A program made the translations under genes and the position numbers. Below, piece after piece: positions 8,179 to 50,155 of a DNA stretch of 64,000 nt (position 1 is the stretch's first letter; each line of letters starts with the position of its first letter). The stretch comes from Planctomycetia bacterium (GTDB lineage Bacteria > Planctomycetota > Planctomycetia > Gemmatales > HRBIN36), in contig JAEUIE010000006.1 of NCBI GenBank assembly GCA_016795155.1, positions 1-64,000 on the forward strand, written 5' to 3'. Under the pieces are notes generated by a model. It was not told where the DNA came from. It saw only the letters and a list, made by a program, of their open reading frames with translations, and searched no databases.

Positions 8179-8248
8179 AACCTGTACGGGTGATGTTTCA
8201 AATGAAGCATATTCTCCCTGAACGTCGATAAAGATGCGGGGGAGCAGC

Positions 8249-9601
8249 ATGACAGTGAGAAGATGTGGCATTTGGCGAAGATGGCGAACTCCATTGATAG
8301 GCATTGCATGCCTGTCAGCAGGATGCGTGTCCTCATCAACCACGCATGAGTTATCTGTTCCGCCTCCACCGGTAGAACTGCTTGGGCCGATTGAAACGCG
8401 TTCTGCCAATCTACCTGTAGAAGAAATAGCGATACCATCACCACTAACGCTAGACCAATCCCTGGGGATTGCGCTGCAAAAGCACCCTGAATTGGCAGCA
8501 GTTTCCAGCCTGATTCAATCTGCACAAGGGCAAGTAGTACAAGCGGGACTCTATCCCAATCCATTGGTTGGCTATCGAGGCGACCAAGTTGGCAGCCGGG
8601 GAGCACCCGGTGGCCAGCAGGGACCGTTCATTTCACAGGAACTCGTCACAGGCGGAAAACTTCAGGTTGCGCAATCCGCTGCGATGGATGCGATGACTGC
8701 TACGCAGTGGCAAGCCATCACCACACGATTTAATTTGGAAGCAAAAGTTCGCAGCGCCTTTTATGAAGTGCTCACCGCTCAGCGGGAAGTCAGCGAAAAC
8801 GAAGCCATCGTCAAGATCGCTGAAGAAAACCTGGAAGCATCACGAAAGATTGAACAGGCAGGACGAGGCAGTCTGCCTGATGTATTGCGGGCACGAGTTG
8901 AACTGGAATCAAACAAGAATCGTTTAATTGCTGCCAGGAAACGACTGGAAGCAGCCTGGCCACTGTTGATCAACGCGATGGGACTGACAGGCGTAGCTCT
9001 GGTTCCTGTTGAAGGCAATCTGGAAAGTACGAAGCCTCAATACGATCTAAATTCACTTCAACGCCAAATTGCTGAGAATCACTCCGAAATCAAACAATTG
9101 CAGGCAAGCGTCGCAGAAGCTGAGAAACTGTTATCGCGAGCCAGATTGGAGAATGTGCCAAACCTGGATCTACAGGTGCAGCCTCTCTACGATTACACCG
9201 AAAGTGTTGGACAGGTTTCGTTCGAAGTAGGTATGAAATTGCCCATCTGGAACAAAAACCAGGGTAACATTCAATCAGCAGAAGCTGAACATCTTCGACG
9301 CATTCATGAACTGGAGAATACGAGACTCAAATTGAATGAGCGCACCATACAAGCTTATCAAAGATATGTAACTGCCAGAGAACAGGCCGGAAAGTTTGAG
9401 AAAGACCTGATTCCGCAAGCCAAGGAAGCACTCCGACTGACCAAAGCCGCTTTTGAAAGTGGCGATGCCAAGTATGATTACACCGCACTGCTCGATGCCC
9501 AGCGAACACTGGCACAAGCACGATTAAACTATGTTCAAACCCTGGGTGAATTCTGGAAGGCAACCGCTGAAATCAAAGGCCTGTTACAACAGATTCCTTG
9601 A
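8249..9601 (+). CDS. TolC/CusC-family outer-membrane efflux lipoprotein
   Basis: About 450 residues. The ATG at 8249 is preferred over 8234 because GGGGGAG lies at ideal distance. A short leader ends in LSAGC, a good lipobox, so the protein is probably lipid-anchored like CusC and OprM. Two OEP repeats are visible: the first with LTLDQSLGIALQKHPELAAV and GLYPNPLVGYRGD, the second with LENVPNLDLQVQPLYDYTES and a long helical segment ending in FWKATAEIKGLL. It forms the trimeric channel through which the RND pump and adaptor discharge metal ions. Last gene of the + strand efflux run. Confidence 0.9.
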   Translation: MTVRRCGIWRRWRTPLIGIACLSAGCVSSSTTHELSVPPPPVELLGPIETRSANLPVEEIAIPSPLTLDQSLGIALQKHPELAAVSSLIQSAQGQVVQAGLYPNPLVGYRGDQVGSRGAPGGQQGPFISQELVTGGKLQVAQSAAMDAMTATQWQAITTRFNLEAKVRSAFYEVLTAQREVSENEAIVKIAEENLEASRKIEQAGRGSLPDVLRARVELESNKNRLIAARKRLEAAWPLLINAMGLTGVALVPVEGNLESTKPQYDLNSLQRQIAENHSEIKQLQASVAEAEKLLSRARLENVPNLDLQVQPLYDYTESVGQVSFEVGMKLPIWNKNQGNIQSAEAEHLRRIHELENTRLKLNERTIQAYQRYVTAREQAGKFEKDLIPQAKEALRLTKAAFESGDAKYDYTALLDAQRTLAQARLNYVQTLGEFWKATAEIKGLLQQIP

Positions 9602-9700
9602 TGTGATGTCTTCCACCTCTCGTACAACAAATGATTGAATAACTGATGCATCCTGTTGGGGAAACGAGTATGCTACAGTCCCTCCCAGGACTTTTCATAG

Positions 9701-12700
9701 ATGTATCGTGTAGCCTTCCTGCTTCATTTTTTGCTTTTATCTACCGTTGTATATGCACAGGGGCTTTCACCTGCTGAATCCCTGCAGCGGATGAGGCCTG
9801 CTGATGGTTTGAAAGTTCAATTGGTTGCAGCAGAACCACTGATCAGGCAACCTGTCACGATGACGTTCGATTCGCAAGGCAGGCTCTGGGTAATTCAATA
9901 TCTGCAGTACCCTGCTCCTGCTGGCTTAAAGCCAGTTGAAGTCGATCAGTATCTGAGAACCCGATATGACCGTGTTCCAGAACCACCGCCTCACGGCCCA
10001 CGCGGACTAGATCGCGTTACTATTCTGTTTGATCCGGACAAAAAGGGACGCTTTCAGCAAGCCAAAGAATTCGTGACCGGACTCAATCTGGCAAGTGGAT
10101 TAGCACTTGGCAACGAAGGTGCTTACGTACTCCAAGCGCCTTACCTGCTCTTTTATCCAGATCGAAACAAGGATGACATACCGGATGGTAATCCTGAAGT
10201 GCTGTTGAAAGGATTCGGTATCGAAGATGCTCATGCAGTAGGTAACTCTCTGATATTTGGTCCCGATGGCTGGCTGTACGGTGCGCAAGGCAGCACAGTT
10301 ACTGCCCGTATTGCTGATCCATTAACAGGAAAAGTATTCGAATTCCAGCAAGGAATCTGGCGTTATCATCCGCGAACGCGACAGTTCGAACTGTTTGCTG
10401 AAGGTGGAGGCAACACCTGGGGCCTGGATTTTGACCGTAACGGTCAATTGATTGCGGGCACCAACTGGTCCAATGTCGCTGCGCTCCACATGGTTCAAGG
10501 TGGATACTATGTAAAAGGTTTCTCCAAACATGGTCCCTTGCATCATCCTCATGCGTATGGCTACTTCGAGCATATGCCCTGCGAGGGATTTCGTGGCGGA
10601 CATGTAACCTGTGGCGGAATTGTCTATCAGGGGAATCTGCTGCCTGGCAGGTTCAAAAACATGTATCTGGGCTGCAATCTGCTCGATCACAATCTCTTTT
10701 GGTACAGCTTTCAGCGCAATGGCAGCACATTCAGTATGAAACATGAGGGAACGCTGCTTCACGGTAACGATACCTGGTTTCGACCCATAGATTTGCTCAC
10801 AGGGCCTGATGGTGCGGTATACGTGTGCGATTGGCACGACAAGCGCGCCAACCATGTTGATCCTATTGATAACTGGGACAAATCTAACGGAAGAATCTAC
10901 AAACTCGTGTCATCACAGGATTCGCAAACCAAACCTGCAATAATCGATCTAACCAATGCTTCTGCTACAGAACTCATTGCCTTGCTCAATCATCCAAATA
11001 GCTGGCAACGATCCGAAGCTCGGCGATTGTTAATTGAAAAACAAGACACTGAAATCAGAAGACAACTCAAGGAATCATTGACCAGCCATTACGCAGATTT
11101 TTCACTGGATACCTTATGGGCACTCTATGGTTGTAAGGGGCTTGACATATCACTGACAGCAAAACTCTTGTCTCATCCTCGAGGTGAAGTTCGCTGCTGG
11201 GTCATTCGCATGATAACTGATCATGCCACTCCAGAAGGTATGCAGCAGTGGATTCCCGTGTTACCCACCCTGGCAACTGTTGCCGAGATTGAAACTAGTC
11301 CCCTGGTATTGTCGCAACTTGCATCTACTCTCCGTCGTCTGGTGCAATCGAAAACGGAGAAGGCAGTATGTATTTCGCTGCTCCAATCATTATTGAATAA
11401 TAAGCACTGGAACGATGATAGCCTTGGCCCACTGCTATTATGGTGGGCTATCGAAGAAATCCTTTCGCAATCGATCCTGCAATTTGATTGTAGTCTGTTC
11501 GGAGTTCAGAAAGACTCAACAACACCAAATACTGAACTGAAAAGGTTCCTTCTGGAACGTATCAGCCGTCGTTTTATGAGTGCTGAAACTCAGGCTGGTT
11601 ACCTGAGTCAGGCCAGGTTGCTGGAGTATTGTTCATCGCATGCAGCCCCGAATAGCTGGTTAAACAGTGTTCTAACGGGTATGGAAACTGAACTGTCAGC
11701 TAAACCATTGAAGAATATGCCTGCAGATTTGCAACGTGCGCTTAAGCGATTGCCTGCCGATAATGCTGTACTTCGTATCCAACTGCTGGCTGGTGAACCT
11801 TCCGCAATACGATGGGCGCATGGAAAATTGATCGAAGAGAATACCAATGAAAGTGAAAAGGCTCTGCTACTGCAATGTTTGATCAAACAATCCCGCATTG
11901 CACCTGTGCTGGATTTGCAGAAACTTTTCTCATCCGCAAAAACGGACCCGTATCGGCTGGTGTTGCTGGAAGCTGTAGCCCTTGTGCCTACTGCAGATAA
12001 CATTCAGTTTCTCATCAGGCAATACACCAACTGTTCATCAACAGTACGCAGGAATATCATCAGTCTGCTGATTTCAAGGCCTGCAACCTCAGTATCCTTG
12101 TGCGAAGCAATTGAACATCAGCAAATTTCCAGCAAGGAGATTCAACTCGATCAAGTTCAGCAGATGCGACGCTACCAGAATGTAACGGTAGATCGAATTA
12201 TCACCAAATATTGGGGAAGCGTAAAACCTGTTACGAGTGGGGATAAGCAGGCTCGCATCCGCAGCATTGTGCACATGCTGAACCAGGGGCAGGGTACACC
12301 TGACATGGGAAAAGCATTGTTCACCCAGCATTGTGCAACCTGTCATCAACTTTTTGGCGAAGGGGGAAAAGTCGGACCTGATTTAACCGGCGCGGATCGA
12401 TCGAATCGGGAATTCCTGGCAACCCACATTATTGATCCTCATCTGGTCATACGTCCAGAATACTCTGCGTACACTGTTGTCACGACCGATGGCCGAACTC
12501 TGACTGGGTTAATCACTGAAGAAACTACCCAGGAAATCAAACTGCTTGATGCCCAGGCAAATACGATTCAGCTTACTCGCGACCGTATTGATTCACTCTC
12601 AGCAAGTCGTCAGTCGCTTATGCCGGAGGGCATTCTCGATCCACTGGATGATCAGCAAATCCGTCACCTGTTTGCCTACCTGCAGCAACCTAACGATAAG

Positions 12701-32137: not shown

Positions 32138-32917
32138 TTAAGCAGTCATAATTGTCTTCCGACGACGCAGATAGTTGACACCAGTGAGACAGAAGATGCC
32201 GATTCCACTCAGAACGACACCAGCTGGGACTGGAACAATGTTTCCGCCACCTTCCTGATATTGCTCAGGATTAACCAAAACAATCTGATCTTGATTGCTG
32301 GAATTGGTTATTCCCAAAAAATACTTGAGTGGATTGGTTGTCGAAAATGTACTTACTGCAGTTAGTAACGCATTCACATTTGCAGCGACGAGAGTTCCGC
32401 CTGGATTAGCAATGGCAAAGCTTCCACCGGTACCATTCCATATATCTGCAACATTAGCTTCAAAAACAATATTCCAGATTGCAGCCTGTACTTCAGGTGC
32501 ATCGTACAATCCACCCATCACAAATTGACTTGGATTGGCACCAATATAAGCAGCCAGTTTTTGCAAAGCTGCTGCCCTGACTGGTCCCATTCCACCCGGA
32601 ACGGATGATTGTGGCAAAGAAGCAAGATTAGATGTTATCGTGTAATTATAAGAACCTCCAGAAGAGATATTCTCTCCAATTTCGATACAGAATGAATAAG
32701 CTTTGTCACCTGTCGCACCAAAAACAGCTGTTCCAACAGGTGAAAGGTTACTTACATGATTCCATGTAAATAAACCTGCACCACCATGAAATGAATTTCC
32801 CGCACCAGTGACACCATCCCACTGGCGTACACCATCAAATTGCAATCTCACATCTGCTGCATTCACCTGCGTGAATCCAACTAAAATAAGAGAGGCAATA
32901 ACAAGCAAGCGTCGCAT
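32138..32917 (-). CDS. PEP-CTERM-like surface protein with thioester-domain-like motifs
   Basis: About 259 residues; the ATG at 32917 is chosen over 32947 because GGGGG precedes it and the signal peptide then starts directly (MRRLLVIASLILVGFTQVNA). The C-terminus reads VPVPAG, a hydrophobic helix (VVLSGIGIFCLTGVNYL) and RRRK, the tripartite PEP-CTERM sorting signal recognised by exosortases, with a slightly long tail. The mature body has FCIE (Cys77), VQAAIW (Gln144) and YQ (220-221), resembling the three motifs of Cys-Gln thioester adhesin domains. Beside an exosortase-type polysaccharide locus it is the obvious candidate cargo. Terminator downstream, possible promoter upstream. Confidence 0.75.
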   Translation of the reverse strand: MRRLLVIASLILVGFTQVNAADVRLQFDGVRQWDGVTGAGNSFHGGAGLFTWNHVSNLSPVGTAVFGATGDKAYSFCIEIGENISSGGSYNYTITSNLASLPQSSVPGGMGPVRAAALQKLAAYIGANPSQFVMGGLYDAPEVQAAIWNIVFEANVADIWNGTGGSFAIANPGGTLVAANVNALLTAVSTFSTTNPLKYFLGITNSSNQDQIVLVNPEQYQEGGGNIVPVPAGVVLSGIGIFCLTGVNYLRRRKTIMTA

Positions 32918-32995
32918 AGCAAACCCCCTGACGAATTTCCTGAACATGATGAATATTCAGATAAGAGGAACTTCTCCGTTCGGGCGATATGTCAA

Positions 32996-37389: not shown

Positions 37390-38475
37390 TTATGGAATCA
37401 CTCTGGCAATAGGCGGACCTATCCATCGAGTGAGCCAGAGCGGCAATTTCTTCCAGGTGTTGATCAGCAATCGAAATCTGGGGTTATCGGGCCGTAAGTC
37501 TGAAGTCGAACCTCCTCGCAGATAATACTGCCAGGCTGCAGCTTCAGCTTGAGCGCCCCATTGTTTCTTGAACTGGTAAGTTGGACTATCAGGCGAACTT
37601 CTACCAAAATCAAACACTCGCTGTTTTCGTTCGACTGCGCGTTTGAGCATATTCCAGTACATAAGCATGTTGGCACAGGTTGAATTATACTCACGCAGTG
37701 ATGACGCACTGGGAACTTCAGTCACCCCATGACCGTGAAGCAGTAATCCGGAAGCAACAGGATTCATTCCCTTGTACACGGTACACAGTTCAGCTGCATC
37801 TGGAAAAGTTGAAAGAATGCGGCTGAACATCTTCCGACTGAATACCGGCGTTCCAAGATCACGCATGTTCGTCGAGAAAACCTGATAAAAGGCAGGCAGT
37901 TCTTCCAAGGCACCCCAACGCACTGTTAATTCATTTTTCTCAGCCTTGCGAATCTGATTCCGTACTTTCGGATTAAATGCTTTCCAGAGTGTTTCAGTTT
38001 CAGCCGGTAAACTTAATCGCATATGCACTTTTTGAGTCGCAGGTTGTGTCAGGTCCGTTACATCTACCAGTTCTTCATTTCGTAGTTCGAGAGATTTGAC
38101 CCTGAGTCGATCCGCAAGTTCCATGGCTTGCTGAACCAGTAGTTGCTGCAATTCAGGAATTCTTGTCAACACACCAGCAGTGTTGACATACGGAAGACTT
38201 ACCAGCCTGTTGCCAAATAACCAGCTTTTCATCAACACTAAAGGCAAAAAGCCAACTATCTCCTGCTGTATGGTCGCAGTCAGTAGAAAGACTCGATGCT
38301 TCATTGCATCACGAAAAATCAATAACCAGCGTGGATCGCGTGTTAACGAAGAAGTTTGAGACGCAACAAGTAGTTGATTGACTGCATCTAAACGAACATC
38401 GAGTTCAGGGCCTTCTATCAGGCTGACCTGGGGCAACTGGCAACCCATTTCTATTCGATGGTGAAGAGCGCTCAT
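37390..38475 (-). CDS. FemAB-like protein, exosortase-system associated
   Basis: About 361 residues from the ATG at 38475, two bases after the stop of the epimerase gene; the frame is open to 38577 but that would overlap the epimerase. The body resembles the FemAB/GNAT-fold proteins linked to exosortase loci: LFGNRLVSLPYVNTAGVLTR, ETLWKAFNPKVRNQIRKAEKN, FYQVFSTNMRDLGTPVFSRKMF, NMLMYWNMLKRAVERKQRVFDFGRSSPDSPTYQFKKQWGA. The superfamily transfers aminoacyl groups from tRNA to cell-envelope precursors; the substrate of the exosortase subgroup is unknown. Cotranscribed with the epimerase and TPR genes. Confidence 0.85.
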   Translation of the reverse strand: MSALHHRIEMGCQLPQVSLIEGPELDVRLDAVNQLLVASQTSSLTRDPRWLLIFRDAMKHRVFLLTATIQQEIVGFLPLVLMKSWLFGNRLVSLPYVNTAGVLTRIPELQQLLVQQAMELADRLRVKSLELRNEELVDVTDLTQPATQKVHMRLSLPAETETLWKAFNPKVRNQIRKAEKNELTVRWGALEELPAFYQVFSTNMRDLGTPVFSRKMFSRILSTFPDAAELCTVYKGMNPVASGLLLHGHGVTEVPSASSLREYNSTCANMLMYWNMLKRAVERKQRVFDFGRSSPDSPTYQFKKQWGAQAEAAAWQYYLRGGSTSDLRPDNPRFRLLINTWKKLPLWLTRWIGPPIARVIP

Positions 38476-38477
38476 GT

Positions 38478-39413
38478 TTACAAGTTGTTTTGAAGATGCC
38501 AGTTCCACTGTTGTGTCAGCCCGTCCGTAAGCGATATCTGCGGTTGCCAGCGAAGATGCCTGCCTGCTTTGCTGCAATCAGCAAAGGTATGCCGTTGGTC
38601 GCCAGGTCGTTCTGGGCGTATGACAATTTCAGGATCGATTCCTGTAATACCTTTCAATTTCTGAATGATGTCCCACACATTCGCCATCTCCATCCCACCT
38701 ATATTAAACACTTCATGAACGGGTGCATCAACTGCTGCGATAGTGGCTGCTACACAATCTGATACAAATGTGTTGCCTCTGACCTGAAGACCATCACCGT
38801 AAATATGAACTGCCTGCTTACGAGAAAAGGCTTCGATAAATCGCTGATAACCCATATCAGGTCGTTGTCGCGGACCGTAAACCGAAAAATATCGAAGAAT
38901 GACAATGGGTAATTTCCATGCTTCTGCAAACGACCAGCACAGGTTTTCCGCTGCCAGTTTTGTGACACCATATGGCGAAATGGGCCGCGTAGCTAACATC
39001 TCATCACCTGAAGCAAACTTGCCATAGACAGATGAAGTGGAAACGTGAATGAATCGATGCAGCTTCGGACAACTTTTTCTGACAGCTTCCAGTAATTGCC
39101 TGGTGGCAAGGGCATTGCATGTCCAGTAATTCTCAAAATCAACCCAGCTTTGAGTTAGACCTGGCATGGCTGCCAGATGGAAAATCACTTCAACATTCTT
39201 CACCAGGTGGTCTAACTGGTCTGTCCGAAGATCCAGTTCATTAAATTGGTAATCTGCATGTCGTTTGCATACGCTCAAATTTCTTTCTTTGATACGTCGA
39301 TCATAATAGGGATTAAAGGAATCTATCCCTGTCACGTGATGACCGAGTGCAAGTAATCGCTCAGACAAGTGTGATCCAATGAAGCCGGCAGCACCGGTAA
39401 CCAGACAATTCAT
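38478..39413 (-). CDS. NAD-dependent nucleotide-sugar epimerase/dehydratase
   Basis: 311 residues, extended SDR. The Rossmann motif GAAGFIGSHL is at residues 7-16, the catalytic STSSVYG and YGVTK (YxxxK) follow, and the substrate region includes YGPRQRPDMGYQRFI. The pattern is closest to UDP-glucuronate 4-epimerases or related nucleotide-sugar epimerases (GIDSFNPYYDRRIKERNL near the N-terminus is typical of that group). It would supply an activated uronic acid or hexose for the exopolysaccharide. The ATG overlaps the TGA of the upstream glycosyltransferase (ATGA), indicating translational coupling. Confidence 0.88.
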   Translation of the reverse strand: MNCLVTGAAGFIGSHLSERLLALGHHVTGIDSFNPYYDRRIKERNLSVCKRHADYQFNELDLRTDQLDHLVKNVEVIFHLAAMPGLTQSWVDFENYWTCNALATRQLLEAVRKSCPKLHRFIHVSTSSVYGKFASGDEMLATRPISPYGVTKLAAENLCWSFAEAWKLPIVILRYFSVYGPRQRPDMGYQRFIEAFSRKQAVHIYGDGLQVRGNTFVSDCVAATIAAVDAPVHEVFNIGGMEMANVWDIIQKLKGITGIDPEIVIRPERPGDQRHTFADCSKAGRHLRWQPQISLTDGLTQQWNWHLQNNL

Positions 39414-40570
39414 GAACAGGCTCCTGCTAGACGAGGTGCATTTGCCTGCATACTGTCGTACACATCCACCAGCCTAGACATCCGATTGCTGAAGCTGAAA
39501 CGGGATTCAACCGTAACTCGACCGTTCCTGCTGAATCGCTCCCTGCGTTCTGCATCGTGGTAGAGTATGCGTAAACCATCAGTCAGAGCATCTGTCGATC
39601 CAGGATCGATGATGTAGCCATTCACATCGTGTTCCATTAACTTTGGAATGCCAGCGACACGGGTAGAGAGCACTGGCACTCCCAATGCCATCGCTTCCAA
39701 CACCACATTTGGAAGACCTTCTCGCATGCTGCTTAAAACAAAAAGATCCATGGCTTCGTAGAAGGGTCGAAGGTCAGATTGAAAACCCATCAATTGAATC
39801 TGGCCGCCGTAACCACTTTCATCAATTTTTCTCTGAAGCAAAGACTCTTCTTTGCCTTCACCGAAAATCATCAATTGTAAAGGCAGTTTCTGATCGATCA
39901 GCGATTTGACACTTTCAATCAGCAAGTCGAAACCCTTTTCTGACGAAAGCCTACCTACTGCACCGATTAGAAATCTATCCTGTTCTATCCCTAATTCTGT
40001 TTTTGCCTGTGAAGTATATTTGAATCTCTGATACTCTGATAAATCAATTCCATTCCTCAACAGGATGCACCGGCTGCGAGGCACACCGGATTGACGGCAA
40101 ATCTGAAAAAGATCATCCGATACGCAGAAGACCTTTTCATAAAAGCGAAGTGTACACCGATCAATGAGATAATATAACGGTGTGCGTTGCGTTTGCTCGA
40201 CCCATCCATGAACCGTGGTTACCAATCGCATAGGCCAGAATGGGTAAACCAATAAGCCCAATAAGTTCGTTTTATAATCGTGACCATGCCAAATGGTCAC
40301 GTTTCTCTCTCGGCACAATTTCAAAGTTTGAGAAATAACCTTGTAATCCAACGGCCCATGATCTGGGATCGAAATGAGTTCAACTCCCTTGGCGTGAGCT
40401 TTTTCTCTCAGCTTGGGAAAACCCACATCATCTGGATGATGCAGATAGACGCAGAGCATCTCATAACCCCGCTCTGCCAGATATCGAGGCGAGTTTATGA
40501 TTGTCTTATCTGGTCCACCACCAGAACCTTTTATCACCCGCAGATCAAGAACTACAGTCATAACATTCAA
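39410..40570 (-). CDS. GT4-family glycosyltransferase
   Basis: 386 residues, GT-B fold. The N-terminal domain has a Gly-rich acceptor loop (KGSGGGPDKTIINSPRYLAERGY) and WHGHDYKTNLLG. The C-terminal donor domain has FLIGAVGRLSSEKGFDLLIES, LMIFGEGKEE and the signature REGLPNVVLEAMALGVPVLSTRVAGIPKLM. The E...E pair binds the donor nucleotide. Acceptor and sugar are unknown; a cytoplasmic-face enzyme of exopolysaccharide repeat-unit synthesis is likely. It overlaps both neighbours by 4 bases (ATGA at 40567-40570 and 39410-39413). Confidence 0.9.
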   Translation of the reverse strand: MNVMTVVLDLRVIKGSGGGPDKTIINSPRYLAERGYEMLCVYLHHPDDVGFPKLREKAHAKGVELISIPDHGPLDYKVISQTLKLCRERNVTIWHGHDYKTNLLGLLVYPFWPMRLVTTVHGWVEQTQRTPLYYLIDRCTLRFYEKVFCVSDDLFQICRQSGVPRSRCILLRNGIDLSEYQRFKYTSQAKTELGIEQDRFLIGAVGRLSSEKGFDLLIESVKSLIDQKLPLQLMIFGEGKEESLLQRKIDESGYGGQIQLMGFQSDLRPFYEAMDLFVLSSMREGLPNVVLEAMALGVPVLSTRVAGIPKLMEHDVNGYIIDPGSTDALTDGLRILYHDAERRERFSRNGRVTVESRFSFSNRMSRLVDVYDSMQANAPRLAGACS

Positions 40571-41745
40571 TTCGAGGCTGAACTTTGTGAGCTAGGCGAG
40601 ACACTATTCTTATCGTGAGAGAGCCAGTGTGCAAACAATTCTGCCTTAGATTTCCAAGATTCATGCGACAGACGAACTCGCGCTTTTTTTTGTTGATCAG
40701 ATATGCCTTTCTGGATTCTCCATTTTACCTTCTCAACGAACTCATCTTGTGATCGAGCAATATCTAAACAATCTTGCCACTCCAGATTCGCTGGCAAATT
40801 ACTGGCAACTACTGGCTTTCCAGTCGCCAGATACTCTTTCAGTTTCAAAGGCTGCATCGCTCGAGTGACTGGTAAATCAGCATACGGCATCATCAACACT
40901 GCTGCCTCGTTCGCGAGTATTGGTAATTGAGACAACTTGAGGGATCCGACACTGTAAACATTCTTCAATGCTTGAAGCTTGGAGTCAGGCTCGTCTGCTG
41001 GACCAGCGAGTATAATCGATCCGGTTTGGAGACTACAGGACAGGTGCTGCACATATTCTACATCCATCCGTCGATCAACAACTCCCCAGAAAACTACCCA
41101 GGGTTTTTCAAAGCTAAACAATTTCATCACAGTCTGATCAGTTTTGGTGTACGTCCAGAAATCCAAATCCACGCCATGCGTTAATAATTTTGATGGATAG
41201 CCAAGTGCAAGTAATCGCTGTTGCAGATGCTCGGAAGCTGAGATGATGGTATCCGCCAGCGGCAACATCTCAGTTTCCATGGCTCCAAGCGTGGTACCAT
41301 CCAATCCAGGCCAGACACTGAAATCGTCAACGCAATAGTAAGCAAATGACTGCCTCGGCAATTCTTTAATTATGTCAGCAACTATCGGTATCGTGCTGAC
41401 TACAATTGATGGCGTTGACAGTCTTTGAATCACTGGCATCAATTGACGAAAAAGCAGTTTACAGTTCAGTTTCCGTTGCCAGGCGTTGGAGAATCCAGGC
41501 CACATGCGTGGATTCAGGACAGTTAAATTTGGATGAAGCTCACTTGCTTCTCGATTCTTATTGCTCCACTGTCTCAGTTTTCCCCATGCACGTTTGACAG
41601 TTGCCAGATTCAATCTGGGTGGACGTGTGCCTATCGTGTTTACCCAGATAACTTTTCTGGTTGGTAGAAGTTCCCGAATCAGGTACTGGCAACTTGAAGG
41701 ATGACGCCCCCAATCATCAGAAAATATGAGTAATGGTTCATCCAT
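40567..41745 (-). CDS. GT-B glycosyltransferase (TuaH/GT1-like)
   Basis: About 392 residues from the ATG at 41745, 11 bases after the desulfurase stop; an upstream ATG at 41802 would overlap that gene. It opens LLIFSDDWGRHPSSCQYLIRELL and contains FAYYCVDDFSVWPG, ADTIISASEHLQQRLLALGYPSKLLTHGVD and a donor-site region MQPLKLKEYLATGKPVVASNLP. This pattern matches glycosyltransferases of the TuaH-like group used in teichuronic acid and exopolysaccharide synthesis. No Shine-Dalgarno is evident, so translation may rely on the preceding gene. Donor sugar unknown. Confidence 0.82.
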   Translation of the reverse strand: MDEPLLIFSDDWGRHPSSCQYLIRELLPTRKVIWVNTIGTRPPRLNLATVKRAWGKLRQWSNKNREASELHPNLTVLNPRMWPGFSNAWQRKLNCKLLFRQLMPVIQRLSTPSIVVSTIPIVADIIKELPRQSFAYYCVDDFSVWPGLDGTTLGAMETEMLPLADTIISASEHLQQRLLALGYPSKLLTHGVDLDFWTYTKTDQTVMKLFSFEKPWVVFWGVVDRRMDVEYVQHLSCSLQTGSIILAGPADEPDSKLQALKNVYSVGSLKLSQLPILANEAAVLMMPYADLPVTRAMQPLKLKEYLATGKPVVASNLPANLEWQDCLDIARSQDEFVEKVKWRIQKGISDQQKKARVRLSHESWKSKAELFAHWLSHDKNSVSPSSQSSASN

Positions 41746-41756
41746 GTTGATCAAAA

Positions 41757-42956
41757 TCAGCGAGGACTGTTTCTTGTAATTTCCTGTAATGCTTCCATAC
41801 ACCGATTGATTTCTTCCACTGTGTTATACAAGCCAAATGAGATTCGCAAGCTTGGAGGAATACTCAGCGAATCATGAAACGGCTGGGTACAGTGAAACCC
41901 AGATCGAATACAAATACCATACCTGTCACTCAGTGTTCTTGCTACGACGTGAGAGGATTCTGATCTGAGGAAAAAACTGATTACTCCAGCAGGTGTATGC
42001 GAACTGTCGCGTACTATGAGTTGGCACTTCTTGATTTCACCTAGCCTTTGCAAAGCGTATTGCGTAAGTTCCTTTTCATATTTCTCGACAACATCCATGC
42101 CCAAGTTTTGCAGATAGTCTATGGCTGCTCCAAGTCCAATGGCAGATTCAATAGCTGGTGTGCCTGCTTCAAAACACCATGGTGGTTTTCTTAGTTCTAA
42201 TCGTTCGTCAAAAACTTTCTCAACGGTGCCACCTCCAAGATTCTGAATCTGAAGTCGATGTAGATGTTCAGATTTTCCGTAGAGAATGCCGATACCCGAC
42301 GGCCCGTACATTTTGTGCCCGCTGCATACGAGAAAATCACAATCGAGTTCAGAAACATCTATAGAGATTCTGCCTGCAGACTGTGCTGCATCCACCACGA
42401 GCACTGCACCATATTGATGAACCAGTTGTGCAACTTTTTTAACATTGGTTTGCAATCCAGTAACATTGTTGACATGTGATATGGAAACCAGTGAGACATC
42501 ACCCTTTTTCAATTCCTGACTGAGTAATTCCAGATACTGAGATTCATTGAACAGTGGATCAATCTGTCTAAAAGCTGATTTTCGCCAGGGTAATAGGTTG
42601 GAATGGTGCTCACTGATTGAAACGATAGATACTCCGTTCCTCGGGTATCCACTGGCAATCAAATTAATTCCTTCGGTGGCGTTTCGGAGAAACACCACTT
42701 CATGTTCCATTGCTCCGAAAAAGCTGGCGACTTTGCGTCGAGACTGTTCATAGAGTTCTGTTGTGATATCGCCTAATTCATACACAGAACGATGTACATT
42801 GGTGCTGTGATTGGTTAAGGCATGAGTAACGGCATGAATTACAGCTTTGGGTTTTAGCGTTGTCGCTGCACTGTCCAGATAAATCCATGGCTCAGCATTG
42901 GCATGCATTTGAAGGAGAAACGGAAAATCATCAGTTGCTGGAAGTGAGTTGTTCAT
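41757..42956 (-). CDS. SufS-like cysteine desulfurase (class V aminotransferase fold)
   Basis: 399 residues, full family length. Features match group-II (SufS/CsdA) desulfurases: WIYLDSAATTLKP at the N-terminus, STNVHRSVYEL, SEHHSNLLPW with the cofactor-stacking His, VVDAAQSAG with the PLP Asp, SGHKMYGPSGIG with the Schiff-base Lys at 215, FEAGTP, and IRSGFHCTQP with a Cys at about 356 where SufS carries its persulfide. It should remove sulfur from cysteine. No SufE/SufU, SufBCD or other Fe-S gene is nearby; instead it overlaps a PaaK-like gene by 4 bases inside a glycan operon. A specialised role is likely but unproven; a selenocysteine-lyase or other class V activity is possible. Confidence 0.85.
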   Translation of the reverse strand: MNNSLPATDDFPFLLQMHANAEPWIYLDSAATTLKPKAVIHAVTHALTNHSTNVHRSVYELGDITTELYEQSRRKVASFFGAMEHEVVFLRNATEGINLIASGYPRNGVSIVSISEHHSNLLPWRKSAFRQIDPLFNESQYLELLSQELKKGDVSLVSISHVNNVTGLQTNVKKVAQLVHQYGAVLVVDAAQSAGRISIDVSELDCDFLVCSGHKMYGPSGIGILYGKSEHLHRLQIQNLGGGTVEKVFDERLELRKPPWCFEAGTPAIESAIGLGAAIDYLQNLGMDVVEKYEKELTQYALQRLGEIKKCQLIVRDSSHTPAGVISFFLRSESSHVVARTLSDRYGICIRSGFHCTQPFHDSLSIPPSLRISFGLYNTVEEINRCMEALQEITRNSPR

Positions 42957-44395
42957 GCTGTGAACATTAACTTTGAACGATTGGCGAATGGGCGATGCAT
43001 CAGATATTTTCCACTCGATTCTGGGACAATATAGGGGATAAATCTACTTTTCAATCTCTTGAGTCGTTTGCCAAGTAGTTTACGAAAACGATGTTCCCAT
43101 GCATCGAGATCAGGTTTATGCTCAGAGCCTGGCATTGCAACGATGTAGGCCTCAAAGCAGCCTGATGAAACCTCGTCAACTCGACCATTGGCAATGGCCA
43201 TATCTTCAAACATACAATCTGCGATTTGACTGGCAGTTATAAGCTGATTATCACTTATCAAACATTCTTGCAGTCGACCCTGGATATGCAGTCTAGGGGA
43301 TTTTCTGCCACAAGGGCAAGCATCGTATTCAAGCTTGCCGACATCCCCAACCTGATAATTGATCAGTGGCATCACGGTATTCGATAAATCAGTCAGCAAC
43401 AACAATCCATTTGATTCATGTGGCACAACCTGTTCGACTCTTGCAAGAAAAAGATCATCAAAAACATGCATACCCTCACTTTGACCACAGGAGGCTGCTA
43501 TTATTCCCAGTTCACTGGTTCCATAAACATTGCGGAATGCTGCACGAAAACCGGTCTCTACCCTATTGATCATTTTTGGAGATGCCAGACCACCATAGGG
43601 AATGATGCACTGAATAGACGGGAATCGCATGCATAACTGTTTGGCTCGATCAGCTAACCACATAAGGTAAAGCGGATATGCCCGAAGAATGCGTGGGCCA
43701 ATTCGGGCAATCACATCCAGATGATGATCCAGTGTTCTGAGAAATGCAGAGTCTATCCCCGGTTCGATCGGAGCAAGAGTTTGTTTTCGTAATACCCACT
43801 GTCTTTCAATGACGCCGCGTAGATTAATTAGACCTTGTTGATTGAAGAGACTGTTATTCCTAATCGACTGCTTGAGAAATTCCTTAAATGTCACTGGGGC
43901 TCGATCCGCGATACCACACACAACATTGCACGCATTGGGAGGTATTTCTATTGTTTCAACTGCAATGGATGCGCCGTTAGCGATAATCAAGGCATGGAAT
44001 TCACAGGACCGCCTGTAGTCCCTTTTCTGAAAATCTGAGATCACTGATAATCGATCTGTTGTGCCCGACGTTGATAAATATCTCCAGTCTGATTTGGGGG
44101 ATGATGAACAAATTCCTGACGGGTAATGTAACCGTATTTCTGATTTGGTTAATGGGATTAGATAGTCAAGCTCTTCAATTGCAACGTTATGGTTCTTAAA
44201 TCTAGTTCGATACACCTCAGTATTCCTCGCTGAATGGCATAACAGTTGCCATTTTCGCTGCTGGTTTCGCAGCCTGGATTCGGAACTGGCGAATTGATGC
44301 TGAATGGATCTCCGAAGGTAACTGGAGCAGTTTGAACCGGACAATACGTCCAACGCTGCGAATGACAGACTCTGGATCAATTGATCTGTAATCAT
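42953..44395 (-). CDS. PaaK/CapK-like AMP-forming adenylating enzyme
   Basis: 480 residues. The phenylacetate-CoA-ligase family (CapK group of capsule clusters) is indicated by YLSTSGTTDRLSVISD (nucleotide-binding loop), YGTSELGIIAASC, INYQVGDVGKLEYDACPCGRKSPRLHIQGR with a zinc-like CxC motif, and a C-terminal cap domain. Such enzymes activate a carboxylate as an acyl-adenylate, then transfer it to CoA or another acceptor. In polysaccharide clusters the substrate is usually unknown. It is first in the minus-strand unit and overlaps the SufS-like gene by 4 bases. Only about 56 bases separate it from the divergent lyase-like gene, so the two probably share a control region. Confidence 0.82.
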   Translation of the reverse strand: MITDQLIQSLSFAALDVLSGSNCSSYLRRSIQHQFASSESRLRNQQRKWQLLCHSARNTEVYRTRFKNHNVAIEELDYLIPLTKSEIRLHYPSGICSSSPKSDWRYLSTSGTTDRLSVISDFQKRDYRRSCEFHALIIANGASIAVETIEIPPNACNVVCGIADRAPVTFKEFLKQSIRNNSLFNQQGLINLRGVIERQWVLRKQTLAPIEPGIDSAFLRTLDHHLDVIARIGPRILRAYPLYLMWLADRAKQLCMRFPSIQCIIPYGGLASPKMINRVETGFRAAFRNVYGTSELGIIAASCGQSEGMHVFDDLFLARVEQVVPHESNGLLLLTDLSNTVMPLINYQVGDVGKLEYDACPCGRKSPRLHIQGRLQECLISDNQLITASQIADCMFEDMAIANGRVDEVSSGCFEAYIVAMPGSEHKPDLDAWEHRFRKLLGKRLKRLKSRFIPYIVPESSGKYLMHRPFANRSKLMFTA

Positions 44396-44451
44396 ATTGC
44401 TTCAGAATTCATAACGTAAAGCAGGACATTACACATTTGACGATACCGACT

Positions 44452-47061
44452 ATGAGCAGCAGCGAATTTTGGCAGACCATTGGACTCAATGTTGAAGCTA
44501 ATGATCCTTCGAAAAGGAAGAATGAACCTCTAACCTGTGGAATACCAATCCCTCGTGGAACGCTCTTTGATCCCCAAAGCCTGAAACTGGTTCAACGAGA
44601 AGTTCAGATTCCATTACAAACCACCATTCTTGATACTTGGCAAGATGGGTCAATTCGTTGGTTATTGCTCGATTGGCAGGCAACATATCAGGGTAATTCC
44701 ACGTTTCAGATCAAGAGGCACACATCTCAATCCCAATTAGCCATTCAGGGCATTGTAACTTCTCAAAGTAATAATCAACTTCGAGTTGATACTGGCAACG
44801 GTGTCTTTACTCTCAATTCAATTCGCGGCAATCCTATTCTCACCTACATAAAGAATAATAGTCCGCAGCAACATCCTGTGATTGGCAATCTTTCGGTTCT
44901 AGATGAGCAACGCCAACTTTATCATCCTATCATTAGTCAGATAGAGATTGAATTATCGGGATTACTTCGCACTGTCTGCAGCTTTCGAGGACATCTAGTA
45001 GATAGTGAGAACAGAGTACTATGTGACCTAACTCTTCGATTTCACTTTTATGCTGGATCGAGCACGACTCGTACAGAAATTACTCTGACAAATTCTCGCA
45101 AAGCGGAACACCCCGGTGGGCTCTGGGATCTGGGTAATGGCGGATCGATTTATCTACGCGATGCATCGTTACAGATTTCAATATCCAGCAATTCGGGTCA
45201 GTGGAATGGATCTATCTCGCCAGAGCACGGCCAAACTCAGCATTTCACTTCGCATATGGAACTTTATCAGGAATCAAGCGGAGGAGAAAACTGGAACAGT
45301 AGTAACCATGTAAATCGATTTGGCGAAGTACCACTGCGATTTCGAGGTTATCAATTAAAATACGACAAGATTTCAACCCAGGGGTTGCGGGCGACACCAA
45401 GTCTGGTAATGCATCATGAAGAGAAATCGCTTGGACTGACAGTTCCTGAATTCTGGCAGAGGTTTCCACAAGCTGTGGAAGCAAAGCCAGGGGAATTGAC
45501 TTACAGGTTTATTCCCAGGCAAACTGCCGATGTTCTTGAGCTACAGGGTGGGGAACAGATAACTCACTGTTGTTATCTTGCATTCGATCGCGATACCGTT
45601 ACAGAAACTCATCTCGATTGGTGCAGATCACCAGGTCACGCTGCTGCTACTCCTGAATGGTATGCAAGTTGTCAGGTGGTACCCTGCTTAACCCCGCGGA
45701 AGGATGACCCACATACTGAATATCTAACTCTTGTCGATGCGGCGCTGGATGGACCCGATACACTTCAAACTAAACGAGAAGCTATTGATGAATATGGCTG
45801 GAGGCACTTTGGTGATATCTATGGTGATCACGAAGCAGTGTTTCACCAGGGACCTGCTCCCCTGATTTCACATTACAACAATCAGTACGATGCGGTGGCG
45901 GGTTTAGGATATCAGTACCTGCGTTCTACAGACTCTCGCTGGTTACATGAGATGAAATATCTTGTCAGGCACGTCATTGACATCGATATCTATCACACCG
46001 ATCAGGATAAATCAGCTTACAACCATGGCCTTTTCTGGCACACGTTTCACTATGTCGATGCTCATACCGGAACACATCGAAGCTACCCTAAAGATGCCCG
46101 AGTACCGCCTCATGGCAACCCTGTTCCTGGTGGTGGGCCTGCTAATGAACAGAATTATGCTGCAGGTTTGATGCTTCATTTTTTCCTGACTGGCGACCAA
46201 GCTTCCCGCCGTGCAGCGCTGGGTCTGGCTCAGTGGGTGATCGATATGGATGATGGTAACAAAACTGTCTTTCGCTGGCTCAGCAGAGCCGATACCGGAT
46301 TGGCGAGCAAAAGTAGAACACCTGAGTATCACGGACCGGGTCGCGGTGCTGCTAACAGCATTTCAGTACTCCTGGATGGACATCGACTTTCACGTTCACA
46401 GAACTTTCTTGATAAAGCCGAACAGCTTATTCGTCGGTGTATTCATCCAGAAGATACAATTGAAAAACATCAACTTCTGGATGCTGAGAACCGCTGGTTC
46501 TACACCATGTTTTTGCAATCTTTAGGGAAATACCTGGCGTATAAGCAGGAACTGAATCAGATTGACAAGATGTATGCTTACGCACGCGCTAGCTTACTCC
46601 ACTATGTTCGCTGGATGGTTCTGCACGAATATCCATACCTTGAGAAGCCTGAAATTCTTGAATATCCAACAGAAACCTGGGCTGCCCAAGACATGAGAAA
46701 ATGCGAGATATTCAATCTTGCTTCTCTATATTGCAGTGATGAAAAGGAAGCAGAACTGTTCAGAAGTAAGGCTGACTTTTTCTTTCGCTATTCCACTTCA
46801 ACATTACTGGCGATGCCCACTCGAACCCTCTGTCGACCTGTTGTTCTGATGCTGAATTTTGGTTTTTCACATAACTGGTACAGAATGAATACTACTATTA
46901 AAGCTCCCGAACCTTCAGGAAATCATGCTTTTGGAAACCCCTTGCGTTTTGTTCCACAGAAGGTTATTGCCCTGAAACGAGCAAAATTGATAGTAGCTAC
47001 TGTTGGATTCACTTTCCTCATTTTGATTGCAATGGTTATTTATTGGCTGTTTCGATGTTGA
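44452..47061 (+). CDS. Membrane-anchored exo-rhamnogalacturonan-lyase-like protein
   Basis: About 869 residues from the ATG at 44452; a TTG at 44437, ten bases after AGGA, would add five. The N-terminal region (CGIPIPRGTLFDPQSLKLV, VPLQ-like IPLQTTILDTWQDGSIRW) resembles the first domain of exo-rhamnogalacturonan-lyase/YetA-like proteins. The centre has the expected toroid-like stretches (YGDHEAVFHQ, AYNHGLFWHTFHYVDAHTG, GGPANEQNYAAGLMLHFFLTG). The C-terminus ends in a hydrophobic helix (LIVATVGFTFLILIAMVIYWL) and a single Arg-Cys. No N-terminal signal peptide is visible, so topology is uncertain. It is the only + strand gene in the polysaccharide locus and overlaps the next gene's end by 22 bases. 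A lyase or hydrolase trimming the cluster's own polysaccharide is a reasonable guess. Confidence 0.65.
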   Translation: MSSSEFWQTIGLNVEANDPSKRKNEPLTCGIPIPRGTLFDPQSLKLVQREVQIPLQTTILDTWQDGSIRWLLLDWQATYQGNSTFQIKRHTSQSQLAIQGIVTSQSNNQLRVDTGNGVFTLNSIRGNPILTYIKNNSPQQHPVIGNLSVLDEQRQLYHPIISQIEIELSGLLRTVCSFRGHLVDSENRVLCDLTLRFHFYAGSSTTRTEITLTNSRKAEHPGGLWDLGNGGSIYLRDASLQISISSNSGQWNGSISPEHGQTQHFTSHMELYQESSGGENWNSSNHVNRFGEVPLRFRGYQLKYDKISTQGLRATPSLVMHHEEKSLGLTVPEFWQRFPQAVEAKPGELTYRFIPRQTADVLELQGGEQITHCCYLAFDRDTVTETHLDWCRSPGHAAATPEWYASCQVVPCLTPRKDDPHTEYLTLVDAALDGPDTLQTKREAIDEYGWRHFGDIYGDHEAVFHQGPAPLISHYNNQYDAVAGLGYQYLRSTDSRWLHEMKYLVRHVIDIDIYHTDQDKSAYNHGLFWHTFHYVDAHTGTHRSYPKDARVPPHGNPVPGGGPANEQNYAAGLMLHFFLTGDQASRRAALGLAQWVIDMDDGNKTVFRWLSRADTGLASKSRTPEYHGPGRGAANSISVLLDGHRLSRSQNFLDKAEQLIRRCIHPEDTIEKHQLLDAENRWFYTMFLQSLGKYLAYKQELNQIDKMYAYARASLLHYVRWMVLHEYPYLEKPEILEYPTETWAAQDMRKCEIFNLASLYCSDEKEAELFRSKADFFFRYSTSTLLAMPTRTLCRPVVLMLNFGFSHNWYRMNTTIKAPEPSGNHAFGNPLRFVPQKVIALKRAKLIVATVGFTFLILIAMVIYWLFRC

Positions 47062-47639
47062 ATGCGATGCTGAACTACTCTTGCAGGCACCCCCACTGAA
47101 ATAACGTTATCGGGGACTGCTTTGGTCACCACAGCACCTGCTCCTACCACTGAATTGCGCCCTACATCAGCCATGACAATGGCAGCACTTCCTATCCATG
47201 ATCTTTCACCGATGGTAACCAACGTCAGAACACCTTGCTGTTCACGGATGGGTTTACTTACATCGCTGAATCCATGCGTTTGTGCACCGCTCGTGATGTG
47301 AACTCCTGATCCAATCAACACATCCTTTTGAAGATGTACTAAGCCCAGAAAACAGCCCGGACCGACATAGACATTTTCATCGATGCGGGCATTAGTTTTG
47401 GAAAACACTGTGCCGAATGAGATGGTCGCAGTTGGGTGACATGCCTGTATGGTCCATGATAAAAATGCGTTTCTTAAATATTGACCAAATATTCCCGGCA
47501 ATAAGCTCAACCATTCACTTGATCCTTGTAAACATCTGTCTCTGCCCAGCAGCGGTACCCAGAGCCAATGCCACAACAATACTGGAAATATGATAATGTG
47601 TGCGATAGCTCTCGAGACCAGCTTTGTAATGTTCCGCAT
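47040..47639 (-). CDS. Left-handed beta-helix (hexapeptide) acyltransferase
   Basis: 199 residues. An N-terminal hydrophobic stretch (AHIIIFPVLLWHWLWVPLL) precedes hexapeptide repeats (ARIDENVYVGPGCFLG, DVLIGSGVHITSG) and the typical closing IGERSWIGSAAIVMADVGRNSVVGAGAVVTKAVPDNVISVGVPARVV. Similar to WcaF/maltose-O-acetyltransferase-like enzymes, using acetyl-CoA or another acyl-CoA to decorate a sugar. Last gene of the upstream minus unit, 22 bases after a GT4 gene. Its 3' end overlaps the 3' end of the convergent lyase-like gene by 22 bases. Confidence 0.87.
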   Translation of the reverse strand: MRNITKLVSRAIAHIIIFPVLLWHWLWVPLLGRDRCLQGSSEWLSLLPGIFGQYLRNAFLSWTIQACHPTATISFGTVFSKTNARIDENVYVGPGCFLGLVHLQKDVLIGSGVHITSGAQTHGFSDVSKPIREQQGVLTLVTIGERSWIGSAAIVMADVGRNSVVGAGAVVTKAVPDNVISVGVPARVVQHRIQHRNSQ

Positions 47640-48835: not shown

Positions 48836-50155
48836 TCAATGCTGTTCACACTGTGATTGTTCATCAATTGCCTGACCTGCCTGACCAGCATCAGTGAATG
48901 AGTTAGTTGCCTGGCAAATTGACCAGATTTGTGCTGCTAAAAGAAAAAGGATGTAAGGTAATTCAAAATTCTCCAATGATAAGAATGTGGCTCCAATGGC
49001 GAAAAGGACTAAGGCTCCTTCGCACCCGTTAACGATTATTCTGGCACGCCTGGCATCGTAGTCATCCCGTTTTCCAAGCGCTTTACGTACTCGTCGGCAA
49101 CAAAGATACATCCCGACATAACATACTAAGTACAGTCCTAGTGCAACATATCCACTGTCAGCAGCTGTCTGAAGCCATTGCGAATGAATGGTTCGACCCT
49201 CCATATCAGCACCGTATGCATAGGTATAAAGATTTGAATTACGAATACCAAAACCAACAATGGGCGATTCAGTCGCCATCTGTATTGCAATTGACCAACT
49301 CTTCCTTCTGCTATTAGCGCTTTCATCAATATCATGTTGCTGTATTGAAAAAAAACGTTCCTGAATTTCCTTACCAGCTAGAAAAGGCATAATTGCCGCA
49401 ATCCCAAGCAGAATGATGGCCAATTGCTTTTTACTTCTGCATCGCATGTAAAACAATGGAATGCATAGTACGGTAGCGAGCATTGCCCCTCTGGAATAAG
49501 ATGTCAGCACTGCATGAATAATAACGGGAATGAACAACAAGAACCCCCATCGTACCCAGTGTCTTATCCCATCCCATGCATACAGGCAGAGCGGAACTCC
49601 CATGGCCAGCATCAATGCAGCGCCGTTATTATCCAGCCCACCGTATCCTCGACGATAAACATATAAGTAACCTAACGATAAGTAAATTTCGTTTACTTCA
49701 TAAGCAATGTAACACAATGTTATTGTAATCGATAAATAGATAAACCATACATGCTGTAAATATGCTATTGCATATCGTGCAACAATAAACATGGTAAACA
49801 TCTTCAGGTATTCAATGAAAAACGGATATGAAACTTCTGGATGCCTCGCGGTAAAGTACGTCAAGCTGATCCACGTTGCAAAGGCAAAAACCGAATAGTG
49901 TCCTATATTGTTCGATAGCTTGTTCTCATCACCATCAAAATCAAGAATGCCTATTCGCCAGGCGATAGTGGCTAAGATGGCACAGAGTGAAACATAAAAA
50001 GACCAGGCCACCAACGGCAATGACCATTGCCAGATAAATTGCGGCCTGAGAACTGCATACAAATAATAAATCAACACACCCTGATAAGGGTGTGAGAAAA
50101 AACTTCCCAAAGTCCCAATTGCCATGGTTGGGACCATGAAAAACATCTGCTTCAT
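48836..50155 (-). CDS. O-antigen ligase/polymerase-like membrane protein
   Basis: 439 residues with about ten hydrophobic helices. The opening (FFSHPYQGVLIYYLYAVLRPQFI) resembles the exosortase-associated putative O-glycosylation ligase group. A periplasmic loop contains YSRGAMLA and later ESPIVGFGIRNSN with HSQWLQTAADSGYVALGLYL, the pattern of Wzy_C/O-antigen ligase proteins where Arg and His are catalytically important. It would polymerise or transfer lipid-linked glycan outside the inner membrane, possibly onto PEP-CTERM proteins. Its ATG overlaps the TGA of the preceding glycosyltransferase (ATGA). Confidence 0.85.
   Translation of the reverse strand: MKQMFFMVPTMAIGTLGSFFSHPYQGVLIYYLYAVLRPQFIWQWSLPLVAWSFYVSLCAILATIAWRIGILDFDGDENKLSNNIGHYSVFAFATWISLTYFTARHPEVSYPFFIEYLKMFTMFIVARYAIAYLQHVWFIYLSITITLCYIAYEVNEIYLSLGYLYVYRRGYGGLDNNGAALMLAMGVPLCLYAWDGIRHWVRWGFLLFIPVIIHAVLTSYSRGAMLATVLCIPLFYMRCRSKKQLAIILLGIAAIMPFLAGKEIQERFFSIQQHDIDESANSRRKSWSIAIQMATESPIVGFGIRNSNLYTYAYGADMEGRTIHSQWLQTAADSGYVALGLYLVCYVGMYLCCRRVRKALGKRDDYDARRARIIVNGCEGALVLFAIGATFLSLENFELPYILFLLAAQIWSICQATNSFTDAGQAGQAIDEQSQCEQH

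Follow-up and report, generated by a model that had tools for sequence, protein, structure and literature searches.

We found that a gene for a SufS-like cysteine desulfurase and a gene for a PaaK-like adenylate-forming enzyme comprise a genuine conserved gene module, which in the genome of Planctomycetia bacterium (GCA_016795155.1) lies within the first 64,000 nucleotides of contig JAEUIE010000006.1 (forward-strand positions 1 to 64,000; hereafter the window). We propose that the two genes encode a dedicated module for carboxylate thiolation, in which the desulfurase persulfide would pass through a Cys-x3-Cys motif of the PaaK-like protein to an acyl-adenylate and yield a thiocarboxylate, a reading to which we assign a little less than an even chance. 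The first-pass annotation of the window had described both ORFs, a four-base overlap between them and the retained PLP lysine, histidine and persulfide cysteine of the desulfurase; each of these points was borne out, and catalytic residues are present in both proteins:

41757..42956, minus strand: SufS-like type II cysteine desulfurase (P0001, 399 aa), with H117/H118, K215, R351, C356 and R371 conserved
42953..44395, minus strand: PaaK-like adenylate-forming enzyme (P0002, 480 aa), with SGTT (A3), YGTSE (A5), GR (A8) and SGK with Lys463 (A10)
42953..42956, minus strand: ATGA stop/start overlap of 4 bases between the P0002 and P0001 genes
43916..43930, minus strand: P0002 codons for Cys156-Asn-Val-Val-Cys160, the invariant Cys-x3-Cys (position derived by counting from the ORF start, 44395)

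The conservation of the pair was evaluated through its PaaK-like member. In one search, an alignment of six PaaK-like proteins was compared with approximately 85,000 species genomes, from which 80 loci were kept. All 13 of the best P0002-like loci featured a SufS-like ORF adjoining the PaaK-like gene in the same direction, and none of the 67 loci of weaker PaaK relatives featured an adjacent SufS-like gene; a class V gene was located 2 kb away on the opposite strand at one of these 67. In the other search, a profile of 14 PaaK-like sequences was run against 398 genomes of the class (E<=1e-60) and matched in nine, in each of which a SufS-like gene was beside the PaaK-like gene (9/9), with four of the loci being new (L163 to L166). 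One PaaK-like search pattern included the cysteine motif, which biases toward finding that motif; L052, L053 and L163-L165 are not exact matches to it. In total, the pair occurs at 18 loci, directly adjacent in 17, within several lineages of Planctomycetota, Krumholzibacteriota and Armatimonadota (Zipacnadia included), and the distance between stop and start runs from 4- to approximately 20-base overlaps up to gaps of <50 bases. This recurrence rules out chance adjacency, and it answers the synteny check proposed in the first-pass annotation, where lack of conservation in related loci was named as counting against a sulfur-transfer role. Two loci depart from the simple arrangement. At L165, the PaaK-like and SufS-like genes are separated by a 1.4-kb interval, approximately 1 kb of which is masked (L165:7584-8626), and an in-frame stop interrupts the PaaK-like match, features that may reflect an insertion or a decaying copy. 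At L052, tandem PaaK-like genes (8144-9703 and 9925-11271), both encoding Cys-x3-Cys, precede a single SufS-like gene.

Protein distances among the P0001-type members correlated with those among the P0002-type members (r 0.83, Mantel p <0.001), and the correlation persisted once the canonical-SufS signal was removed (partial r 0.73), which points to co-inheritance of the two proteins. Relatives of the pair were not found among IMG/VR viral contigs or PLSDB plasmids at the sensitivity used. In the open-access literature searched, we found no prior description of a desulfurase associated with an exosortase, PaaK or polysaccharide thiolation.

P0001 resembles type II desulfurases of the SufS family (TIGR01979) in its fold (TM 0.90 to E. 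coli SufS), PLP lysine, catalytic histidine, short-loop persulfide cysteine and beta-hairpin. Its K215, H117/H118 and C356 align with K226, H123/H124 and C364 of E. coli SufS (EcSufS), and its R351 and R371 with R359 and R379. Because the catalytic residues EcSufS H123, H124, D200, Q203, K226, R359, C364 and R379 are kept in 14/14 aligned paired proteins, their sequences lead us to expect cysteine desulfurase chemistry. The type II features are likewise general: K215, H117 and C356, the persulfide cysteine on its short loop, are invariant in all 14, and the beta-hairpin (EcSufS 256-266) aligns in the paired proteins, one residue shorter in 13 of 14. P0001 differs from SufS in its score (401.3 bits to TIGR01979, below the curated cut-off of 475.1), in two five-residue deletions and in having a PaaK-like genomic partner instead of a nearby SufE/SufU. 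The residues deleted are exactly EcSufS 110-114 and 131-135, on either side of the catalytic His-His; they are missing in 14/14 paired proteins and present in 11 canonical SufS of the same genomes and in EcSufS itself, and the held-out SufS-like sequences of L163 to L165 show equally short spacing ahead of His-His. Canonical SufS formed their own group in a tree (98/100) with the paired copies outside, and the paired copies were not recovered as a single clade in that tree. Counting paired-type SufS in the 398 genomes by the A3 profile alone was rejected, as the scores of held-out paired copies fall among those of canonical SufS. A defence-type DndA/SspA role for P0001 was also discarded, as the PADLOC matches merely reflect class V aminotransferase kinship.

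P0002 has no match in Pfam, and in NCBIfam it is matched best, though weakly, by PaaK-type models, including TIGR02155 (PaaK phenylacetate-CoA ligase) at 55.1 bits against a cut-off of 646.3. Its AlphaFold model (mean pLDDT 84.9) is of PaaK type across most of its length (PaaK1, 2y27: Z 30.2, rmsd 3.3 over 380 residues), and P0002 shares with PaaK/CapK-type ANL enzymes the fold, the A3, A5 and A8 motifs and the A10 catalytic lysine. Within 14 aligned paired proteins, the adenylation residues G111, T112, Y291, G292, G373, R374 and K463 are invariant. P0002 differs from PaaK in having only ~18% identity and in its middle segment after A3, which corresponds to YGYGLFTGG in PaaK, is unrelated to it by sequence and interrupts the PDB profile match. 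This segment carries the motif IPP-x-x-C-x3-C (IPPNAC156NVVC160G in P0002; an IPA variant in L051). A profile alignment places the C156/C160 stretch after the strand preceding YGYGLFTGG in E. coli PaaK, a residue-level placement that is indicative only. We take the YGYGLFTGG segment to line the acyl pocket of PaaK.

The paired PaaK-like proteins form a single clade (100/100) relative to other PaaK relatives, and Cys156 and Cys160 are the sole invariant cysteines among the 14 aligned. Both were conserved in 19/19 proteins (the 14 aligned, L163-L166 and the second L052 copy) and in none of the 67 non-paired PaaK relatives. PaaK relatives carry a zinc site; most of its usual ligands are gone in L047 and L051, which retain the equivalents of Cys156 and Cys160. 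In the P0002 model, residues 157-164 have pLDDT <50, and the Cys-x3-Cys region is accordingly predicted to be flexible, like a mobile loop. The clade-specific motif would suit a persulfide acceptor, and P0002 thereby combines the two features sought in an adenylate/persulfide thiolase, namely an adenylating site and invariant candidate acceptor cysteines.

Contig C33 of the genome encodes a second SufS immediately next to SufB and SufD, which indicates that P0001 is not the Fe-S enzyme. This other SufS is a SufS-SufE fusion, a single 599-residue ORF with a C-terminal SufE domain (L138; G000:C33:1114-2775). Its SufE domain is the only one found in the genome, a draft of 68 contigs that is ~97% complete and could hold an unseen SufE. 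P0001 contains no SufE domain, no NifU_N/SufU domain was found in the genome, and the ThiS and rhodanese domains are all on contigs other than that of the window; P0001 is thus a predicted type II enzyme with no dedicated SufE or SufU transpersulfurase found for it. The first-pass annotation had noted no SufE/U or Fe-S assembly gene near the pair, which stands, and had regarded P0001 being the genome's only SufS as counting against its reading, which the fusion beside SufB/SufD shows not to be the case.

In type II desulfurases the persulfide sits on a short loop, and they depend on an acceptor, normally SufE or SufU, whose cysteine lies on a flexible loop (PMC10011822). Because SufE/SufU are not nearby and the co-inherited protein has an invariant Cys-x3-Cys in a region of predicted flexibility, the PaaK-like enzyme would most economically be read as both acceptor and thiolase. 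In the proposed mechanism, the SufS-like protein would take sulfur from L-cysteine through PLP on Lys215 and store it as a persulfide on Cys356. The Cys156-x3-Cys160 loop would then act as a built-in persulfide acceptor that replaces SufE/SufU. The PaaK-like enzyme would activate a carboxylic acid to an acyl-AMP, the persulfide on one of the two P0002 cysteines would attack this acyl-adenylate, and the second cysteine would resolve the intermediate to release a thiocarboxylate. The acid could be a glycan component or a group added to a glycan, e.g., a uronic acid, as suggested by the glycosyltransferase, FemAB and exosortase genes that recur around the pair. We infer in this way the transfer of sulfur from SufS-like to PaaK-like protein, the substrate, the thiocarboxylate product and the exopolysaccharide destination.

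The adenylation and the persulfide attack proposed for the pair each have precedents in known systems. MnmA/ThiI with IscS also adenylate a target that is attacked by an enzyme persulfide charged by a desulfurase, and MnmA features two conserved cysteines and obtains sulfur from IscS (PMC3980101). However, those enzymes have the fold of PP-loop ATP pyrophosphatases rather than ANL/PaaK, act on RNA and rely on a desulfurase that is not encoded as a partner. LarE converts carboxylic to thiocarboxylic acids through adenylation, and the Thermotoga enzyme can be fed by IscS persulfide (PMC9283937). LarE, which functions in nickel-pincer cofactor synthesis, differs from the pair by its unrelated fold, its sacrificial cysteine or [4Fe-4S] cluster and its substrate. 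With its PaaK-type model, P0002 lacks the PP-loop fold of MnmA, ThiI and LarE. By its anatomy, the pair appears adenylate/persulfide thiolase-like, outside MnmA/LarE by fold and outside the strict curated models of PaaK and SufS.

The first-pass annotation had also assigned the pair to an exosortase-linked glycan operon, and the genes on either side agree with that setting:

37390..38577, minus strand: FemAB family XrtA/PEP-CTERM-associated protein (above cut-off; L049, L050, L051 and L163 have homologues close to the pair)
38478..39413, minus strand: NAD-dependent sugar epimerase/dehydratase
39410..40570, minus strand: glycosyltransferase (weak match to the PEP-CTERM/XrtA glycosyltransferase family TIGR03088; same position in L163)
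40567..41745, minus strand: TuaH-like glycosyltransferase, third gene of the conserved run (adjoins the pair in L163, L164 and L165)
44437..47061, plus strand: PcRGLX-like (rhamnogalacturonan-lyase-like) protein, divergent from the pair (homologues adjoin the pair in L041, L163 and L164, more weakly in L046)
47040..47639, minus strand: hexapeptide-repeat acyltransferase (homologue in L041)
48836..50155, minus strand: O-antigen-ligase-type protein of the exosortase A system-associated family (below cut-off)
contig C6:63998-64948: exosortase (TIGR02602, over cut-off), with the gene end in the last bases of the window

For the TuaH-like gene, we favor as start codon the ATG at 41745, located 11 bp past the desulfurase stop, over the GTG at 41802. 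Past the end of the window are genes for an UpxY/RfaH-like antiterminator and an XrtA polysaccharide deacetylase, the latter over its cut-off. The presence of FemAB, exosortase, antiterminator, XrtA deacetylase, glycosyltransferases and epimerase indicates that the locus is of the exosortase exopolysaccharide type. We also observed a secreted protein (window 32138-32947) with a VPVPAG-hydrophobic-RRRK tail that resembles an exosortase sorting signal, and a hydrophobic C-terminal segment in the PcRGLX-like protein, which may process the same polymer.

Glycan or exosortase genes accompany the pair at 10 of the 18 loci (the window, L041, L046, L049, L050, L051, L053, L163, L164 and L165), with L046 counted on a lyase-like fragment only. 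The arrangement is closest at L163, which repeats the run of lyase-like gene, PaaK, SufS, TuaH-like glycosyltransferase, glycosyltransferase and FemAB. No such genes were found in the stretches examined at L043, L044, L045, L047, L048 and L052; approximately 7 of the 18 loci are without visible glycan/exosortase context, L166 grouping by sequence with L043/L044 and the stretch at L042 being short. Given the context at 10/18 loci, the pair may plausibly place sulfur in the exopolysaccharide. A single common glycan substrate is doubtful because of the ~7/18 loci lacking visible glycan/exosortase genes; the acid acted on by the pair may differ among hosts, in some of which the product may be something other than an exopolysaccharide.

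We offer more tentatively, at clearly less than even confidence, the broader proposal that the pair represents a new family of thiocarboxylate synthetases across several phyla, in which a PaaK-fold enzyme carries a Cys-x3-Cys loop that also acts as transpersulfurase for a type II desulfurase of its own, and which in many hosts places a thioacid or its derivative onto an exosortase-linked exopolysaccharide. If so, the PaaK/ANL scaffold would have given rise to a form of carboxylate thiolation that has a desulfurase of its own and dispenses with SufE, SufU, ThiS and rhodanese carriers. Bacterial envelope polymers might then bear a reactive sulfur group with roles in metal binding, cross-linking or redox chemistry, and such sulfur would escape standard glycan analysis.

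The strongest alternative to carboxylate thiolation, which we consider possible if rather unlikely, is that the PaaK-like protein decorates a glycan through acyl-CoA or acyl-carrier ligase activity, while the SufS-like protein serves the same pathway as a PLP lyase or aminotransferase acting on a small molecule, with a sulfur-free product. The PaaK fold is consistent with this role, as the closest solved relatives of P0002 are CoA or amide ligases, and exosortase-A loci are known for an AMP-forming ligase that neighbors a PLP enzyme (acyl-CoA ligase TIGR03098 and PLP decarboxylase TIGR03099). Those two proteins belong to other families, and both kinds of pair stand side by side in L053, a locus of another phylum where relatives of the exosortase-A hydrolases, the acyl-CoA ligase and the PLP decarboxylase follow right after our pair, all below cut-offs. 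However, a PLP lyase or aminotransferase would have no use for the Cys356, short cysteine loop and beta-hairpin that every member keeps, and ligase activity leaves the Cys-x3-Cys of the partner unexplained.

The evidence for sulfur transfer is shared by a second alternative, in which sulfur reaches the PaaK-like cysteines and does not end up in a free thiocarboxylate. The product might instead be a thioamide, a carrier linked by a thioester, a cysteinyl or polysulfide group, or a small thio-metabolite unrelated to the polymer. Loci without glycan genes fit this alternative, including L043, L044 and L048, where a PAP2/haloperoxidase-like gene neighbors the pair, and L047, which has glycolate-oxidase-like genes. 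We judge it unlikely, as the simplest known outcome of an adenylate and a persulfide is a thiocarboxylate or thiocarbonyl.

Less probable again is that Cys156 and Cys160 bind metal or form a structural disulfide, with the desulfurase feeding a site or cluster rather than a substrate. Cysteines three residues apart can be metal ligands, and those of Thermotoga LarE hold a [4Fe-4S] cluster that is used for sulfur transfer (PMC9283937). Yet only two cysteines are invariant across the family, the zinc site of PaaK is a different one and has mostly disappeared in two members, and the low confidence predicted for the surrounding loop resembles that of a mobile loop. Finally, although P0001 shares the family and fold of SufS, we reject as highly improbable that it serves Fe-S assembly, in a housekeeping or spare capacity, and lies in the operon by accident, given the separate SufS-SufE fusion with SufB and SufD, the same PaaK-like partner kept across phyla and the two specific deletions.

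Two other genes were observed near the pair at more than one locus. A PAP2/vanadium-haloperoxidase-like gene directly follows it at four loci from at least two lineages (L041:12721-14586, L043:12707-14563, L044 and L048). At L049, the upstream side of the pair has a lactate-racemase (LarA)-like gene (L049:3214-4455), with a related gene in the same place in L050; the LarA family uses a nickel cofactor that contains thiocarboxylate.
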